This document shows positions 12,681 through 25,877 of a stretch of DNA of 64,000 bases, in pieces (positions within the stretch are counted from its first letter, which is position 1; the number at the start of each line of letters is the position of its first letter). The stretch comes from Pseudomonas asplenii (GTDB lineage Bacteria; Pseudomonadota; Gammaproteobacteria; Pseudomonadales; Pseudomonadaceae). Made by a program: the position numbers and the translations under genes. The stretch lies in contig NZ_LT629777.1 of the NCBI RefSeq assembly GCF_900105475.1, positions 62,001-126,000 of the forward strand, read 5' to 3'. The notes beneath the pieces are model-generated. The model searched no databases, was not told where the DNA came from, and saw only the letters and a program-made list of their open reading frames with translations.

Positions 12681-13049
12681 ATGCCTGATGCTAATCCGTG
12701 TCTGAATTGCGGTGCCTGCTGTTCGTATTTCCGTGTCTCGTTCTACTGGGGAGAGTGCGTTTCGGGCGGCGGCCTGGTGCCCGACGAACTGGTCAGCCAG
12801 ATCAGCCCGAGCCGCGTGGCCATGAACGGCACCGAGGGGAAAAAACCCCGTTGCACCGCACTGGAGGGCGAAGTCGGCAAAGCGGTCAGTTGCTCGATCT
12901 ACCATGAGCGCTCCAGCCCCTGCCGCGAGTTCGATGCCGCCTGGGTCAACAATGAGCCCAACGAACGCTGCGATGCGGCCCGCGCCGCCTTCGGCCTGCC
13001 ACCGCTGGAGCCGGAACAGCCAGTTGCCTTAGTACCAATCGCTATTTAG
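12681..13049 (+). CDS. YkgJ-family cysteine cluster protein
   Basis: The protein has 122 residues. [11 protein letters not shown] near the N-terminus and later Cys residues ([21 protein letters not shown]) form the YkgJ/CxxCxxCC signature, thought to bind zinc or an iron-sulfur cluster. The function is unknown. Its position just before the MHYT-GGDEF-EAL gene matches the P. aeruginosa PA3310-PA3311 order, with rapA (PA3308) nearby. A long antisense frame (12516-12905) is a shadow. Confidence 0.85.
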
Positions 13050-13177: not shown

Positions 13178-15457
13178 ATGGAGTGGCTGGGGTTGCATTT
13201 TGTCGACAAATTGCCCGATGAAGGGCAGTTGCTACTCGAGTGCAGTCATAATCCGTTGCTGGTGATGCTGGCCTACATGGTCGCCTGCGCGGCGGCCTTT
13301 GCCACGCTCGACATGGCCGAACGCGTCGGCCATGTCGAGAAACCGGCGCAACAGCGGCTCTGGCGCTGGGTCGGAGCCTGCTGCCTGGCTGGCGGCATCT
13401 GGGCCATGCACTTCATCGGCATGCTCGCCTTCCAGACGCCCATTCAGGTGAGCTACGACCTGCCCACCACCATGATCTCGCTACTGATCGCCCTGTTTGC
13501 CTCGTTCCTCGCCATGCACACCCTGGGTCGCCCGCAATTACGCCCGTCGCAGACCGTTCGCGCGGCACTGTCGATGGGACTGGGCATCGCCGCCATGCAT
13601 TACGTGGGCATGTCCGCCGTCCGCTCGAGCGCGCAGCAGTATTATCAGCCCACTCTCGTCGGCCTGTCGGTACTGATCGCCATCCTCGCCAGCCTGGCGG
13701 CGCTGTTGCTGGCCAGGCATTTTCGCAGCGGCAGCGGGACGTTCCATCAGTTGCTCAAATACAGCGCCAGCCTGGTCATGGGCGCCGGCATCGTCAGCAT
13801 GCACCTTACCGGCATGTGGTCATTGAGCCTGGTGCTGCCGGCAGGCACCAGCCTGCCCTCCGCAGTGGAGAACAATCACCTGCAACTGGGCATGACCATC
13901 GCCCTGATCGCCCTTCTGATCATTGGCAGCAGTATCAGCGCCGCCCTCGCCGACAAGAAGCTGCAGTACAAGGAACAGGACCTGCGCCGGGTCAACGCCC
14001 TGCTCAGCCAGTTGGACCAGGCCCGCATGTCCCTCGCCCAGGTCGCGCACTACGATGCCCTGACCAACCTGATCAACCGCCGCGGTTTCAACCAGATCTT
14101 CGCCGAACGGCTGATTGAACGCACTAACAATGGCGGCATGCTCGCGGTGATGTTCCTCGATATCGATCATTTCAAGCGGATCAACGACAGCCTCGGCCAC
14201 GACGCCGGCGACGAACTGCTCAAAGTCATCGCCGCGCACATCAAGAGTGCCACGCGCAGCCATGACGACGTAGTCGCGCGCTTTGGCGGCGATGAGTTCT
14301 GTATTCTCATCAGCCTGCACAAACGCGATGAAGCGCGGCACATGGCCTTGCGCATCATGCAAAAAATGAAGGAGCCCATCGAGCTGGCCGGGCGGCGTAT
14401 GGTGATGACCACCAGCATCGGCATCGCCGTATTCCCCGAGGATGGCAAGTCCTGCGAGGAACTGCTGAAAAATGCCGATCTGGCGCTCTACCAGTCCAAG
14501 GACGCAGGGCGCAACAGCCTGCATTTCTTCAATACCAACCTCAAGACCCGCGCCACCCTGGAACTGCAACTGGAGGAGGAACTGCGCCAGGCTTTGCGCG
14601 AAGGCAAGGAGTTGCAACTGATCTACCAGCCCATCTGCGAAGTCAAGACCGGCCAGGTTGCCAAGCTTGAAGCGCTGGTGCGCTGGAACCATCCGCAACA
14701 CGGGCTGCTGACACCGGACCGCTTCATCCGCATCGCCGAAGCCAACGGGCTGATCGCCGATCTGGACAAGTGGGTGCTGCGCACCGCCTGTCAGGACCTC
14801 GCGACGCTGGACGGACAGGGTTATGGCGAACTGATGGTCACCGTGAACTGCTCGTCGCTGAATCTGGCACGTGAGGAACTGGCCGACGATATCGAAAGCG
14901 CGCTGCGCGCCACTGGTATTTCAGCCAGCCGGCTGGAGCTGGAGGTCACGGAAAACGCCTTGATGGGCAATATCACCAATACCCTGCAACTGCTACGACA
15001 GATGCGCAGCCTTGGCGTCTCGTTGTCCATCGACGACTTCGGCACGGGCTATTCCTCACTGGCCTACCTCAAGCGCCTGCCGCTCAATACCCTGAAGATC
15101 GATCGATCGTTCATCCTCGATATCCCCAAGTCGGCCCCGGACATGGAGATCATCCAGGCGATCATCGTCATGGCCCATACCCTGCACCTGCAAGTGGTCA
15201 CCGAAGGTGTCGAGACCCAGCAGCAATACGACTTCCTCGCCGAGTACGACTGCGACTATATCCAGGGCCACCTGTTCAGCCGACCAGTCCTGCTGGAAGA
15301 ACTGCCAGCGGTGCTCCAACAGCTCAACCAGCATCGCCCGCCATCCTCCGCGCTCCTCACGCCGGGCCAGGACACGGACCCAGCGCCGTCACGTCCGCCC
15401 TTTGCGGATAACCCCGGCTACCAGGCTGGCGCATCGACTGTGCGTCCCATCCGCTGA
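13178..15457 (+). CDS. nbdA: MHYT-GGDEF-EAL c-di-GMP protein, NbdA-like
   Basis: The protein has 759 residues. The seven-helix MHYT sensor (about 25-260) has three MHYT-type motifs: AMHFIGM (76-82), AMHYVGM (139-145) and SMHLTGM (208-214). The family proposes these bind copper and sense a diatomic gas such as NO. The GGDEF domain (about 290-450) has intact RFGGDEF (371-375). The EAL domain (about 465-715) has LEALVRWN (EAL 499-501) and DDFGTGYSSL. The locus order (rapA, ykgJ, this gene) is that of P. aeruginosa nbdA, an NO-linked biofilm dispersal phosphodiesterase. P. aeruginosa NbdA is reported to have a degenerate AGDEF, so the intact motif here suggests possible dual activity. Ribosome site: AGGACGAG. 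Confidence 0.85.
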   Translation: MEWLGLHFVDKLPDEGQLLLECSHNPLLVMLAYMVACAAAFATLDMAERVGHVEKPAQQRLWRWVGACCLAGGIWAMHFIGMLAFQTPIQVSYDLPTTMISLLIALFASFLAMHTLGRPQLRPSQTVRAALSMGLGIAAMHYVGMSAVRSSAQQYYQPTLVGLSVLIAILASLAALLLARHFRSGSGTFHQLLKYSASLVMGAGIVSMHLTGMWSLSLVLPAGTSLPSAVENNHLQLGMTIALIALLIIGSSISAALADKKLQYKEQDLRRVNALLSQLDQARMSLAQVAHYDALTNLINRRGFNQIFAERLIERTNNGGMLAVMFLDIDHFKRINDSLGHDAGDELLKVIAAHIKSATRSHDDVVARFGGDEFCILISLHKRDEARHMALRIMQKMKEPIELAGRRMVMTTSIGIAVFPEDGKSCEELLKNADLALYQSKDAGRNSLHFFNTNLKTRATLELQLEEELRQALREGKELQLIYQPICEVKTGQVAKLEALVRWNHPQHGLLTPDRFIRIAEANGLIADLDKWVLRTACQDLATLDGQGYGELMVTVNCSSLNLAREELADDIESALRATGISASRLELEVTENALMGNITNTLQLLRQMRSLGVSLSIDDFGTGYSSLAYLKRLPLNTLKIDRSFILDIPKSAPDMEIIQAIIVMAHTLHLQVVTEGVETQQQYDFLAEYDCDYIQGHLFSRPVLLEELPAVLQQLNQHRPPSSALLTPGQDTDPAPSRPPFADNPGYQAGASTVRPIR

Positions 15458-15720: not shown

Positions 15721-17895
15721 ATGACTTCCAAAAATAACCCAGCCAACCCAGTATCCGATCTGATGTCACCCGCGGTCGTGGAAAAAACCTACAAGGCCTA
15801 CTCGACGCCCCGTCCACTGGCGACGCAGCAGTACCTTTATTTCACCGAAACCAATACGGATCGTATCCTCGATAACCTCGACGGCCTGCGCGACATGGTA
15901 TTTCCGCGTCCGCCGCACCTGGAGATGGAAAACGAAGCCCGCCGCGAGCAGGAATTTCCTTCGGTCTGCCTGATCGGCCTGGGCCGCTGCGGCTCGAACA
16001 TCGCGCTGGATGTCGCCGAACTGGTCTACAACGCCCGCAAGTTCTACCTCAACGAATTCAACAACGACGACAAATCCGCCGACAAGGGCTACCGCCCAGC
16101 ACAGTGGATTCGCAACAACCTGCGCCTGGTCCAGAACAAATCTGCCAAGCCGGTGTTCCTGGTGGAACCATTGGTGATGCTCGGCGACCTGGACAAGGAC
16201 ATTGCCGGGCGTATCCGTTTTTCGCGTAAAGGCGAGAAAAGCGGTTTTATCCGCGACTACAGCAAGATGAAGATCATGGACCTGTCGGAAGTCCACGCCG
16301 GTGGTGCGGGTAACGCACCGATCCTCGGCCAGTACCTGGCCAAGATCATCCTGAACAAGGACACCCAGCGCTTCTCCAGCCCCGACTGGAAGATGATCCA
16401 TTCGTACCTGATCGACTCCTGCGGCATCAAGGCCAACCAGTCGCGCCTGTACTTTTCGATTTTCAGTGCCGGCGGCGGTACGGGCTCGGGCATGGCCTCG
16501 GAATTCGGCCTGGCCCAGCAGTACTCGTATATGAACAAGACGTTCGACACCAAGCCGATGGACGAGCACGACAGCAAAAGCGGTCATTCCTTCGTCTTCG
16601 AGCCGATCTTCACCAGCGGCATCTGCGTGCTGCCGAATATTTCCGACCATCGCAGCGAGATGTCCGAGGCACTGCACATCAATGCCGGCCGCCTGCTCTG
16701 CAAGTACCTATCGGAGGAATGGGACTTCTCGTACAACTTCGACAATGAAGACAGCAGCGAAGCCAGCGTCATGGGCCGTATCCGCCCCTGGAACGCGATG
16801 ATGCTGATCTCCAACGACATCATGCGCTATGCCGAAGAGAACGATGACGGCAACATCCAGAACATCGATGTCAATGCCATGGAGAAGCACGCCAACCAGT
16901 ACATCTCCCAGCAGATCTTCAACATCCTGACAGCCCAGGCCGTCACCACCGATTACGACCAGAACTATTTCCGTCGTGCCGGCATCGACATCGGCGAGAC
17001 TATCCGCCTGGATGCCAACGATCTGTTCATGAGCCTGGCCGGCCCGGTGGCGATTGCCTATGCCGAATCCGTGGTACCGGAACAGCCGGCACCCAGCAGC
17101 GATAAATTCAAAGTGTTCGAGAAAGAGCAGCCGCGACTGAACATCGACGACCTGTTCTTCCGTTCCATCGATCTGCCGCACTTCAACAAGGTCACCCAGG
17201 CCATCGAAGGCATCAGCCTGCTGCCGATCGAGTCCAAGCGCTACCGCGCCGCCCTGGAGCAGTACAAGGCTTCGGGTTACGACGCAGCAGCGCTGCACGA
17301 CCTGCATTTCTTCAAGAACTGTTCGTCGGTGGTCTCGATCGTTTCGCTGCCCAAGGACTACAAACTGTCCTACATGGACCTGAACCGGCTCAAGACCCAC
17401 CTCAACAGCCTGTTCCCCAACACCACGCTCAAGCGTTATGCGCTGGTGATCGGCGCCTCGGCCAACCTGTCGCTGACCACGCTGATCGCCAAGAGCCCGT
17501 GCCTGTCGGACGATTTCCTGACCCTGATCGTGGCCTTCATCAAGCGCTGCTTCGCCCGCAACCCGTACCGCTTCGACGAGACGCTGGACAACTCGATGCT
17601 CGAGTTCATCACCCGTGACGAGTTCGACGAAGGGCATATCGACGAATTGCTCAACGAGTTCGAAAACCCGGCGAAAATCCTCGATACCAACTGGTACGCG
17701 ATCAAGCCCATGTACGAAAAGAAGTACCGCGAGCTGATCAACGACAAGGACAAGTTCGTCTCGATCAACGATATCCGCCTGTCCCGCGACTGCGTGAAGA
17801 AGGCCATCAAGTATCTGCGCGAGATCTACCGCCACCGCATCGGCAAGACCAAGGTCATTTCGCTGAACAGTCACACCGGTCGGACCGAGTACTGA
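15721..17895 (+). CDS. large tubulin/FtsZ-like protein of unknown role
   Basis: The protein has 724 residues with no signal peptide or membrane span. The segments seen match the tubulin/FtsZ GTP site in order: T1-like IGLGRCGSNIALD (85-97), T3-like GGAGNAPILGQYLA (194-207), the tubulin signature SAGGGTGSGMASEFG (249-263) and a candidate T7 loop NIDVNAME (381-388) followed by a helix. It resembles the Tubulin-like family (PF13809, Tubulin_2) rather than cell-division FtsZ, which is about 390 residues. The remaining 300 C-terminal residues are not recognised and are rich in charged residues. Filament formation and GTPase activity are inference. It is a single gene between nbdA and a REP pair, with core-like GC and codon use. 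The Shine-Dalgarno sequence is poor. Confidence 0.72.
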   Translation: MTSKNNPANPVSDLMSPAVVEKTYKAYSTPRPLATQQYLYFTETNTDRILDNLDGLRDMVFPRPPHLEMENEARREQEFPSVCLIGLGRCGSNIALDVAELVYNARKFYLNEFNNDDKSADKGYRPAQWIRNNLRLVQNKSAKPVFLVEPLVMLGDLDKDIAGRIRFSRKGEKSGFIRDYSKMKIMDLSEVHAGGAGNAPILGQYLAKIILNKDTQRFSSPDWKMIHSYLIDSCGIKANQSRLYFSIFSAGGGTGSGMASEFGLAQQYSYMNKTFDTKPMDEHDSKSGHSFVFEPIFTSGICVLPNISDHRSEMSEALHINAGRLLCKYLSEEWDFSYNFDNEDSSEASVMGRIRPWNAMMLISNDIMRYAEENDDGNIQNIDVNAMEKHANQYISQQIFNILTAQAVTTDYDQNYFRRAGIDIGETIRLDANDLFMSLAGPVAIAYAESVVPEQPAPSSDKFKVFEKEQPRLNIDDLFFRSIDLPHFNKVTQAIEGISLLPIESKRYRAALEQYKASGYDAAALHDLHFFKNCSSVVSIVSLPKDYKLSYMDLNRLKTHLNSLFPNTTLKRYALVIGASANLSLTTLIAKSPCLSDDFLTLIVAFIKRCFARNPYRFDETLDNSMLEFITRDEFDEGHIDELLNEFENPAKILDTNWYAIKPMYEKKYRELINDKDKFVSINDIRLSRDCVKKAIKYLREIYRHRIGKTKVISLNSHTGRTEY

Positions 17896-17976: not shown

Positions 17977-18107
17977 GATCATGGTCCTACAGCGAGACTG
18001 TGGATTTTCTCCACGAGCAACAGCCACTACGGCGTTGCGCGGTTACTGGCCTACCCACTTACAGGCCATAAATGCATAACGCACATGCACCATTACGATA
18101 CACAGAC

Positions 18108-23893: not shown

Positions 23894-24199
23894 ATGAGCA
23901 ACACTACCCGCCGCACGCTGTCCGCCGCCTCTCTCGCCCTGACCCTCGGTTCCGCCCTGAACATCGCCGCCGTGCCGATGACCGCCCAGGCCGCCGACAC
24001 CGAGAAATGCTTCGGCGTCGCCGCCAAGGGCCAGAACGATTGCGCCGCCGGTGCCGGCACCAGCTGCGCCGGCAGCTCGACCAAGGACAACCAGGGCAGC
24101 GCCTGGAAACTCGTGCCCAAGGGCACCTGCGAGAAAACCGCCAGCAGCACCTCGCCAACCGGCTTCGGTCAGTTGCAGGCTTTCGACGAAAAAGGCTGA
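23894..24199 (+). CDS. bufA1: bufferin-type precursor peptide (DUF2282)
   Basis: The protein has 101 residues from the ATG with GGAG ahead. The frame is open from 23807, but only this start gives a normal signal peptide (residues 1-33, ending AQA before ADTEKC). The mature part has four Cys at 39, 50, 58 and 79 in the DUF2282 pattern [15 protein letters not shown]...GTSCAG...KGTCEK. In the described bufferins an MNIO enzyme converts Cys into thiooxazole, and the exported peptide binds copper. It is the first gene of a three-gene operon with the MNIO enzyme and its partner. Modification here is inferred from the family and context. Confidence 0.88.
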
Positions 24200-24225
24200 T
24201 CGCCAGTCCCGTTCGAGAACCGAAG

Positions 24226-25119
24226 ATGTCGCCGTCAGCGCAATCCGAGCCGGCTGTTTGTGCTCGCGCCAACGCCCCAGGCCTGCTCCCACCCCGTGCA
24301 GGCCTGGGGCTCAAGGCCGAGCACTTCCAGATAATCGTGGAAAGCCGTCCCGACCTCGGTTTCTTCGAGGTGCATGCCGAGAACTACATGGTTGCCGGCG
24401 GCCCGTTCCATCACTACCTGGGACGGATTCGCGAAGACTATCCGCTGTCGCTGCATGGCGTCGGACTGTCCATCGGCAGTGAAGGCCCACTGGATCGAGA
24501 GCATCTCCAGCGCTTGGCCGCGCTGATCGAGCGTTACCAGCCACAGTCTTTTTCCGAACACCTGGCCTGGTCGAGCCACGGCCCGGTGTTTCTCAACGAC
24601 CTGCTGCCGCTGGCCTATGACCCGGCCACCCTGCAACGGGTCTGCGAACATGTCGACCAGGTGCAAAACACACTGAAGCGCCCGATGCTGCTGGAGAACC
24701 CGGCGACCTACCTGCAGTTCCAGCGTTCGACCCTGGACGAGACGGACTTCATCAGCGAAGTCGTCCACCGTACGGGCTGCGGCCTGCTGCTGGACGTAAA
24801 CAACGTGCATGTCTCCTGCATCAACCATCAGCGCGATGCCCTGGCCTATATCGAAGGCCTGCCGCTGCACGCGGTCAGCGAGATTCACCTGGCAGGTTTT
24901 GCCGAAGACCGTGACAACTTAGGCGACCGGCTGCTGATCGACGATCACGGCGCGCCCATCGACGCGGATGTCTGGGCGCTGTACCAGCAGGTCCTGACCC
25001 GGACCGGAGCGCAACCCACACTGATCGAACGCGACAACCACCTTCCCGCCTTCAGCGAACTGCTCGCCGAAGCCGCACAGGCCCAGGCCTTGCTCGATCT
25101 TGCCGAGGCCCGCCGATGA
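24226..25119 (+). CDS. bufB: MNIO (DUF692) multinuclear iron oxidase, BufB-type
   Basis: The protein has 297 residues from the ATG at 24226 ([19 protein letters not shown]); the open frame continues upstream inside the precursor gene but in another reading frame. It has a TIM-barrel fold with probable iron ligands in [35 protein letters not shown] and EIHLAGF. The family oxidises Cys residues of precursor peptides. It is 26 bases after the precursor gene and overlaps bufC by four bases (ATGA). Confidence 0.9.
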
Positions 25120-25877
25120 GCGACCAGGACACCTTCGGCGCGGCGCTGCTCGACCCGCAACAGCCCTGCCCGCCGGGTCTGTACAGCACCAACGGAGCCG
25201 ACCCGGCCAGCCGTTTCGCGGTGTATCGCAACAACGTCCAGAGTTCGCTGATCAATGCCCTGGCCGACAGCTATCCGGTGGTCCAGGCACTGGTCGGGGA
25301 AGAGTTCTTTCGGGCCATGGCCGCCGTGCATGTCCGCCAGAGCCCACCCGGCAGCCCGGTCCTCAACGCCTACGGGCAGGACTTCGACGCGTTCATCCGC
25401 ACCTTCGCCCCCGCCGCCAGCGTGCCCTACCTGGCCGATGTTGCCCGCCTGGAACGCTTGCGGATCAATGCCTGTCACGCCGCCGATGCAACGCCCCTGA
25501 GCCCGGAACAGATCGGCCGGCACCTGGCGGATCCCGAGTCCCTGGGCAGCCTGCGGGTCGGCTTGCAGCCCAGCGTCGCGGTACTGGAATCACCCTACGC
25601 GATGCTGTCGATCTGGCTGGCCCACCAGGGCGTCGGCCAACTGGAGCTGATCGACCCGAACTGCGCAGAAGCGGCCCTGATCCTGCGCTGTCAGTGGCAG
25701 GTCGAAGTGTTCAGGATCGATCATGCCAGCCAGGTATTCATCCGGCTTCTGCTGGATGGCCAGCGGCTGGAAACAGCCCTGGACAGTGCCCATGCGGCCA
25801 GTTGCACATTCGATCCGGCACAGACGCTGGGCCTGCTGATTCGCCACGGCGCCATCACCCGCATGCAGGCCGCGTGA
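25116..25877 (+). CDS. bufC: DUF2063 protein, BufC-type precursor-recognition partner
   Basis: The protein has 253 residues. The N-terminal DUF2063 domain has [34 protein letters not shown] (about 33-66) and [16 protein letters not shown] (about 105-120). The family partners the MNIO enzyme and helps bind the precursor. It is the last gene of the operon. A DoxX-type membrane gene, found after these genes in some organisms, is absent; the next gene is a convergent LysR regulator. Confidence 0.88.

Follow-up and report, generated by a model that had tools for sequence, protein, structure and literature searches.

What a chromosomal tubulin/FtsZ-like protein of 724 residues does in Pseudomonas asplenii, and whether the c-di-GMP gene beside it is a clue to its role, was the question raised by this locus. 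The window, meaning the whole analysed stretch of DNA of 64,000 nucleotides (contig NZ_LT629777.1, positions 62,001 to 126,000), was examined for the gene itself, for its relatives in other genomes and for the genes that surround them.

The gene and its conserved loops

The gene (15721..17895, + strand) comprised a single open frame, and its 724 aa product was assigned to the FtsZl2 family from its PF00091 and PF13809 matches and its fit to the family described in a 2010 survey, as excerpted (PMC2875224). As the initial annotation had stated, composition was host-like (codon-position GC 0.53/0.36/0.83), and the protein is nearly twice the size of FtsZ: the one ordinary FtsZ of the same genome (170 bits) has 398 aa. 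A terminator-like hairpin lies 3' of the gene (17987..18003, + strand), as a consensus match only.

Conservation was measured over 275 sequences, comprising the window protein and 274 homologues. The T1 loop GLGRCGSN (residues 86-93; 15976..15999), the T3 loop GGAGNAP (residues 194-200; 16300..16320) and the T4 signature GGGTGSG (residues 251-257; 16471..16491, within the PF00091 match) were all found on the + strand in the order first reported for them, that of tubulin/FtsZ GTPases. All three were nearly invariant, with substitutions at only three positions: 87 (L 272, F 3), 196 (A 253, S 22) and 257 (G 274, R 1). Binding of GTP is predicted from these loops. The N-terminal tail (residues 1-38; 15721..15834, + strand) was variable, with a mean identity of 0.20 over residues 1-25 and 0.40 over residues 26-50. 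The C-terminal region (residues 470-724; 17128..17892, + strand) had been described as unrecognised, and no Pfam, NCBIfam or PADLOC match was obtained there; it formed the better-scored part of a low-confidence structure model.

Superfamily assignment

An HMM search against PF00091 (Tubulin) and PF13809 (Tubulin_2) had been suggested as a check. Among 24,736 Pfam models, PF00091 ranked first for the window protein (18.2 bits, E 0.0031) and PF13809 was the sole other family listed at E<=0.1 (14.7 bits, E 0.019). Both were therefore the top matches, and both fell below their curated cut-offs of 33 and 27 bits, respectively. NCBIfam and PADLOC scans of the protein listed no family. When family members were scanned singly against Pfam, PF00091 was matched at E<=0.1 by 63 of 63 (best 3.1e-5) and PF13809 by 52 of 63 (best 0.0012); an unrelated family, DUF6562, was matched by 31 of 63 (best E 0.0026). 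Individually the proteins carry a weak tubulin signal, but one that is consistent across the family, and homology above chance is supported at the level of sequence profiles. A published HHpred comparison of PFL_1302 with PF00091 gave an E-value of 0.0033, as excerpted (PMC2875224).

Profile comparison with 28 FtsZ sequences supported only the T3-T4 piece, which aligned in order and scored 25.3, above the highest of 25 shuffles (22.7). For the whole protein the score was 32.0, scarcely more than that of a reversed alignment (31.2) or the top value among 60 shuffles (29.6). Two AlphaFold2 runs gave low-confidence models (pLDDT 43 and 48), and fold searches returned no usable match. Searches of the PDB by sequence gave no match with the single protein as query; profile queries (full length, T1-T4, H5-H8 and C-domain) gave either none or weak matches to ribosomal protein L23, a terpene synthase and FabV. 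Residues 533-593 had been read by eye as S7-H9-S8-S10 of FtsZ, the C-terminal activation domain. The profile score of this piece (10.5) was below the shuffle maximum (15.2), and the domain is therefore not claimed.

Assignment to the superfamily thus rests on the loop order, the family-wide Pfam ranking and the published HHpred match. Low-confidence models and weak scores are also what would be expected if the glycine-rich loops were convergent and the protein had no tubulin fold. This is most improbable given three loops in the right order, two tubulin models that lead the Pfam ranking across 63 members and an independent HHpred match in the excerpted survey (PMC2875224).

Family identity

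FtsZl2 was described as a family of the FtsZ/tubulin superfamily by Makarova and Koonin in 2010, with PFL_1302 of P. fluorescens Pf-5 as its type (PMC2875224), and the window protein fits the family through the published description of that type. The excerpted survey lists as traits GGGTG(S/T)G with loops T1-T4, T6, H7 and T7, and no coiled-coil domain; its excerpted text gives no gene association and no functional clue for FtsZl2. Common to that description and the window protein are the Pseudomonas origin, the T1 and GGGTGSG loops, an unrecognised C-terminal region of ~300 aa, an ordinary FtsZ in the same genome and a distribution within Proteobacteria only. The two accounts differ in that c-di-GMP genes recur alongside FtsZl2 here and none is reported there. 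The novelty implied by the initial annotation falls, as the family was already described in 2010 with the same C-terminal region (PMC2875224).

Among the best 80 loci, the closest named ones were from P. fuscovaginae (99% and 98% identical) and P. protegens FD6 (93%). Two Marinomonas proteins were 69% and 70% identical to the window protein. FtsZl2 from ten other sources was 58-80% identical to it, and FtsZ from seven other genomes was 50-84% identical to the FtsZ of the window genome, a rough comparison because the two sets came from different genomes.

The window protein resembles FtsZ (PF00091) in having T1, T3 and T4 in order, and differs from it in length (724 versus 398 aa), in scoring below the Pfam cut-off, in extra sequence between the loops and in its C-terminal region. 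Like FtsZl1/Tubulin_2 (PF13809; weak match, 14.7 bits) it is a divergent member of the superfamily. FtsZl1 has a coiled coil and an operon with vWA and GTPase genes according to the excerpted survey (PMC2875224); no such operon was seen beside the window gene. A 2023 survey of the superfamily, as excerpted, set divergent Tubulin_2 proteins aside (PMC9871819). In open-licence PMC papers, neither functional work on FtsZl2 nor a link between it and c-di-GMP was found. An FtsZl-type string in PMC7327170 proved to be an FtsZ point mutant and not FtsZl2.

Assignment of T6, H7 and T7

The T7 loop expected in FtsZ has the form DxxD. It had initially been placed at NIDVNAME (residues 381-388; 16861..16884, + strand). 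Over the 275 sequences, residue 381 was N in 114, H in 106, D in 28, Y in 12 and S in 12, with a few others, and the residue three past D383 was A (212), T (41), S (18), R (3) or L (1), never acidic. D383 lies only 17 residues beyond the near-invariant ISND. Because the N is variable, the second acid is absent and too few residues are left for helix H7, NIDVNAME is unlikely to be T7.

The elements were reassigned by hand. The nearly invariant LISND (residues 362-366; 16804..16818, + strand) was proposed as S6/T6, from its likeness to that element of FtsZ. Helix H7 was proposed at residues 384-411 (16870..16953, + strand) from its conservation, including an invariant A391-N392, and from a helix in the low-confidence model. 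On spacing and invariance T7 was proposed at IRLDANDL (residues 428-435; 17002..17025, + strand), where D431 and D434 are both present in 275/275 sequences; this hand placement fits better than residues 381-388. A second near-invariant acid pair, D423xxE426, is an alternative candidate. The piece at residues 415-460 scored 10.2 against the FtsZ profile versus a shuffle maximum of 19.8, so that the hand assignment was not recovered by this comparison.

If assembly is GTP-dependent, the pair D431/D434 (or D423/E426) would act on the GTP of the next subunit. The protein could instead bind GTP as a switch or regulator within the tubulin superfamily and form no polymers, in keeping with its large extra C-terminal region, the additional sequence between its loops relative to FtsZ, and a T7 and C-terminal polymer contacts that lack profile support. 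The very high conservation across 700 residues would suit a protein with many fixed contacts, and a non-polymerising role is considered unlikely.

Distribution

Among Pseudomonas, a match was found in 130 of 199 genomes (own included), at one chromosomal locus each. FtsZl2 was in two pieces in one of these (G076), and another (G068) matched residues 378-724 only. A class-wide draw gave 2 of 369 genomes (own included), the order 16 of 293 genomes (4 of 118 genera) and the phylum 9 of 398 genomes (3 of 212 genera, including the broken copy of genome G1186). In the order of G1186, 24 of 217 genomes and 9 of 82 genera were positive, including that broken copy and the fragments of genome G1311. Carriers outside Pseudomonas include Marinomonas, Agarivorans, Aliagarivorans, Celerinatantimonas, Corallincola and Neiella. 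The gene is common in Pseudomonas, patchy in other Gammaproteobacteria and no oddity of one strain.

No relative was found in 50,697 phage records, 72,556 plasmid records or IMG/VR contigs. This agrees with the initial view that neither a phage nor a plasmid surrounds the gene, and sets FtsZl2 apart from PhuZ and TubZ.

Broken copies comprised pieces with in-frame stops in G1186 (locus L129), two C-terminal fragments in G1311 (contig C55) and residues 378-724 in G068 (locus L189). The gene seems dispensable in some lineages. A patchy distribution (130/199 Pseudomonas genomes, 16/293 in the order) and degraded copies in a few genomes would also suit an accessory defence or conflict gene. Such a role is very unlikely: PADLOC gave no match for FtsZl2, no fitting defence set was found among the scanned neighbours, the gene keeps, in most Pseudomonas, to one stable position flanked by metabolic genes, and it was not found on phages or plasmids.

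Genes neighbouring FtsZl2

The upstream neighbour of FtsZl2 in the window, co-directional with it and separated by 263 bp, encodes a membrane c-di-GMP protein of 759 aa (MHYT-GGDEF-EAL; 13178..15457, + strand). This protein was identified by Pfam MHYT, GGDEF and EAL matches and by the GGDEF and EAL letters in its translation. The gap is unlike that of a tight operon. The remark that FtsZl2 "sits alone" holds in so far as the upstream gene is 263 bp away here; it does not hold for other genomes, in which a c-di-GMP neighbour recurs. Just upstream of the MHYT-GGDEF-EAL gene, 12681-13049 (+ strand) encodes a small CxxCxxCC protein, putatively zinc- or iron-chelating. Further along the window, downstream of a liv operon, are genes for an MbnB/TglH/ChrH-type RiPP precursor modification enzyme (24007-25119, + strand) and a DUF2063 protein (25116-25877, + strand).

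Gene calling covered 160 related loci, of which 158 had an FtsZl2 of nearly full length and were used; all surveyed loci carry FtsZl2. A GGDEF/EAL gene was immediately adjacent (±1) in 45 of the 158: 37 of 122 in Pseudomonas and 8 of 36 elsewhere (Marinomonas 7 of 10, Corallincola 1). An MHYT-GGDEF-EAL gene was second upstream in 66 further Pseudomonas loci, where the intervening gene was a 3-hydroxyisobutyrate-dehydrogenase-like reductase (two examples scanned). A neighbourhood survey across Pseudomonas had been suggested at the outset, and in its light the c-di-GMP gene, which appeared in the title of the initial annotation only, is the most informative part of that observation. A point against a functional link, in this survey of FtsZl2-bearing loci, is that the Pseudomonas locus may have contained the c-di-GMP gene ancestrally.

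By GGDEF family and side there were seven arrangements at ±1, with four unrelated GGDEF families (MHYT, NMT1, ammonium transporter and TPR). MHYT-GGDEF-EAL was upstream in the P. fluorescens-type clade and downstream in loci L140 and L188; NMT1-GGDEF was upstream in L135 and L139 and downstream in L187; Amt-PAS-GGDEF-EAL of Marinomonas was downstream in L117, L118, L120 and L122 and upstream in L124-L126; TPR-GGDEF of Corallincola was upstream in L167. The same partner was thus found on both sides of FtsZl2 in three GGDEF families. The Marinomonas protein, which lies on one side or the other in the seven loci named, joins a full ammonium transporter to PAS, GGDEF and EAL domains in one polypeptide. 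In locus L114 a PAS/GAF-GGDEF-EAL gene is second downstream of FtsZl2, and the gene between them (L114:5001-6923, - strand) encodes a 640-aa protein that gave no Pfam match.

On a quick FtsZl2 tree of 68 dereplicated rows, which carried a long-branch warning, the arrangements fell on different branches. Most c-di-GMP-adjacent loci are from close Pseudomonas relatives and are not independent, and part of the variation in the fluorescens-type clade is gene-caller noise. No c-di-GMP neighbour was present in 33 of the 68 rows or in 28 of the 36 loci outside Pseudomonas.

Other neighbours (rapA, braC/liv, and pfkA-, sucD- and topA-like genes) were common within lineages only, and were set aside as functional clues because their sharing was confined to single lineages. 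The rapA, liv and receptor labels are family matches; the pfkA-, sucD- and topA-like and substrate-binding-protein labels come from reading the sequences by eye. In a Neiella-like genome (G1229) the gene directly after FtsZl2 encodes a dCache methyl-accepting chemotaxis receptor (L170:6712-8631, - strand), and in one group (L171, L172) FtsZl2 is followed by a gene for a substrate-binding protein.

In P. putida, FleQ activates the promoter of the GGDEF/EAL gene PP1144 about threefold according to an excerpted study (PMC5026340); excerpts of two others give PP1145 as hepA (PMC4211546) and list PP_1143 as '3-hydroxyisobutyrate' (PMC3621253). Judging by gene order, PP1143-PP1145 is apparently the same locus as the FtsZl2 neighbourhood.

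Strength of the c-di-GMP association

Four GGDEF families were found in 308 slots at ±1, versus three further families in 1564 slots at ±2 to ±8. The binomial p was 0.017 by GGDEF family and 2.5e-4 by arrangement. Merging loci by common immediate neighbour gave 16 contexts, 3 of them with a c-di-GMP neighbour, and p of 0.004-0.024 on the assumption that GGDEF genes have frequencies of 1-2%. In eight genomes GGDEF density was 0.006-0.014 per kb, with 40-62 matches per genome, or roughly 1% of genes. Every GGDEF gene near FtsZl2 was co-oriented with it; since this includes the background genes, orientation adds no support. All association tests were framed after the pattern was seen. The association is read as real, not universal, and modest above the local background by strict counts. 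It is absent from the excerpted text of the 2010 survey (PMC2875224) and is new here.

FtsZl2 might instead form GTP-dependent filaments with no involvement in c-di-GMP, GGDEF genes being adjacent by chance or co-collected in the same variable regions. The 33 of 68 dereplicated loci without such a neighbour, the conservative p-values (0.004-0.024 for 3 of 16 contexts, 0.017 by family), the frequency of GGDEF genes (roughly 1% of genes) and the silence of the excerpted 2010 survey on any gene association (PMC2875224) are all consistent with this. Chance accounts less readily for four unrelated families in 308 adjacent slots versus three in the 1564 beyond, and for partners that, in three families, recur both before and after FtsZl2. 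We regard a protein unconnected with c-di-GMP as a serious possibility, nearly as likely as the linked reading.

Discussion

The initial annotation was largely right in its observation; its T7 was probably wrong and its claim of novelty falls. The family itself was already known, and what is added here is that c-di-GMP genes recur around it, together with a new proposal for its active site.

The reading preferred here is that FtsZl2, predicted to bind GTP, forms filaments and works with the adjoining membrane c-di-GMP enzymes. It is put forward tentatively, from gene and neighbourhood sequences, as plausible and somewhat short of an even chance. The FtsZl2 filament would be a scaffold at the inner membrane, accessory to FtsZ, and the adjoining GGDEF/EAL protein would set filament assembly or partner binding. 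A condition sensed by the MHYT, ammonium-transporter, NMT1 or TPR module would in this way lead to a changed cell organisation. Because varied sensors occur on the same kind of partner, the arrangement suggests that what counts is the output of the partner, either c-di-GMP or the protein as such, and no one particular signal. The FleQ response of PP1144 in P. putida fits this reading.

A possible precedent, by analogy, in which a membrane cyclase acts on a filament of the tubulin family is the E. coli cyclase YfiN, which localises to the Z ring and halts division in the excerpted account (PMC4992967). The filament in that case, as described there, is the division FtsZ; FtsZl2 would be a second, candidate case. 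A bolder and rather unlikely extension is that FtsZl2 constitutes a c-di-GMP cytoskeleton, a filament dedicated to signalling that would cluster, or be steered by, a co-located cyclase/phosphodiesterase with sensors interchangeable from lineage to lineage.

FtsZl2 has been without a functional clue since 2010, yet it is found in about two thirds of the sampled Pseudomonas genomes. The recurrent c-di-GMP neighbour would be a first such clue and provides a concrete candidate partner. If the proposal is true, a second tubulin-type filament would be connected with the signal by which these bacteria change between swimming and biofilm life.
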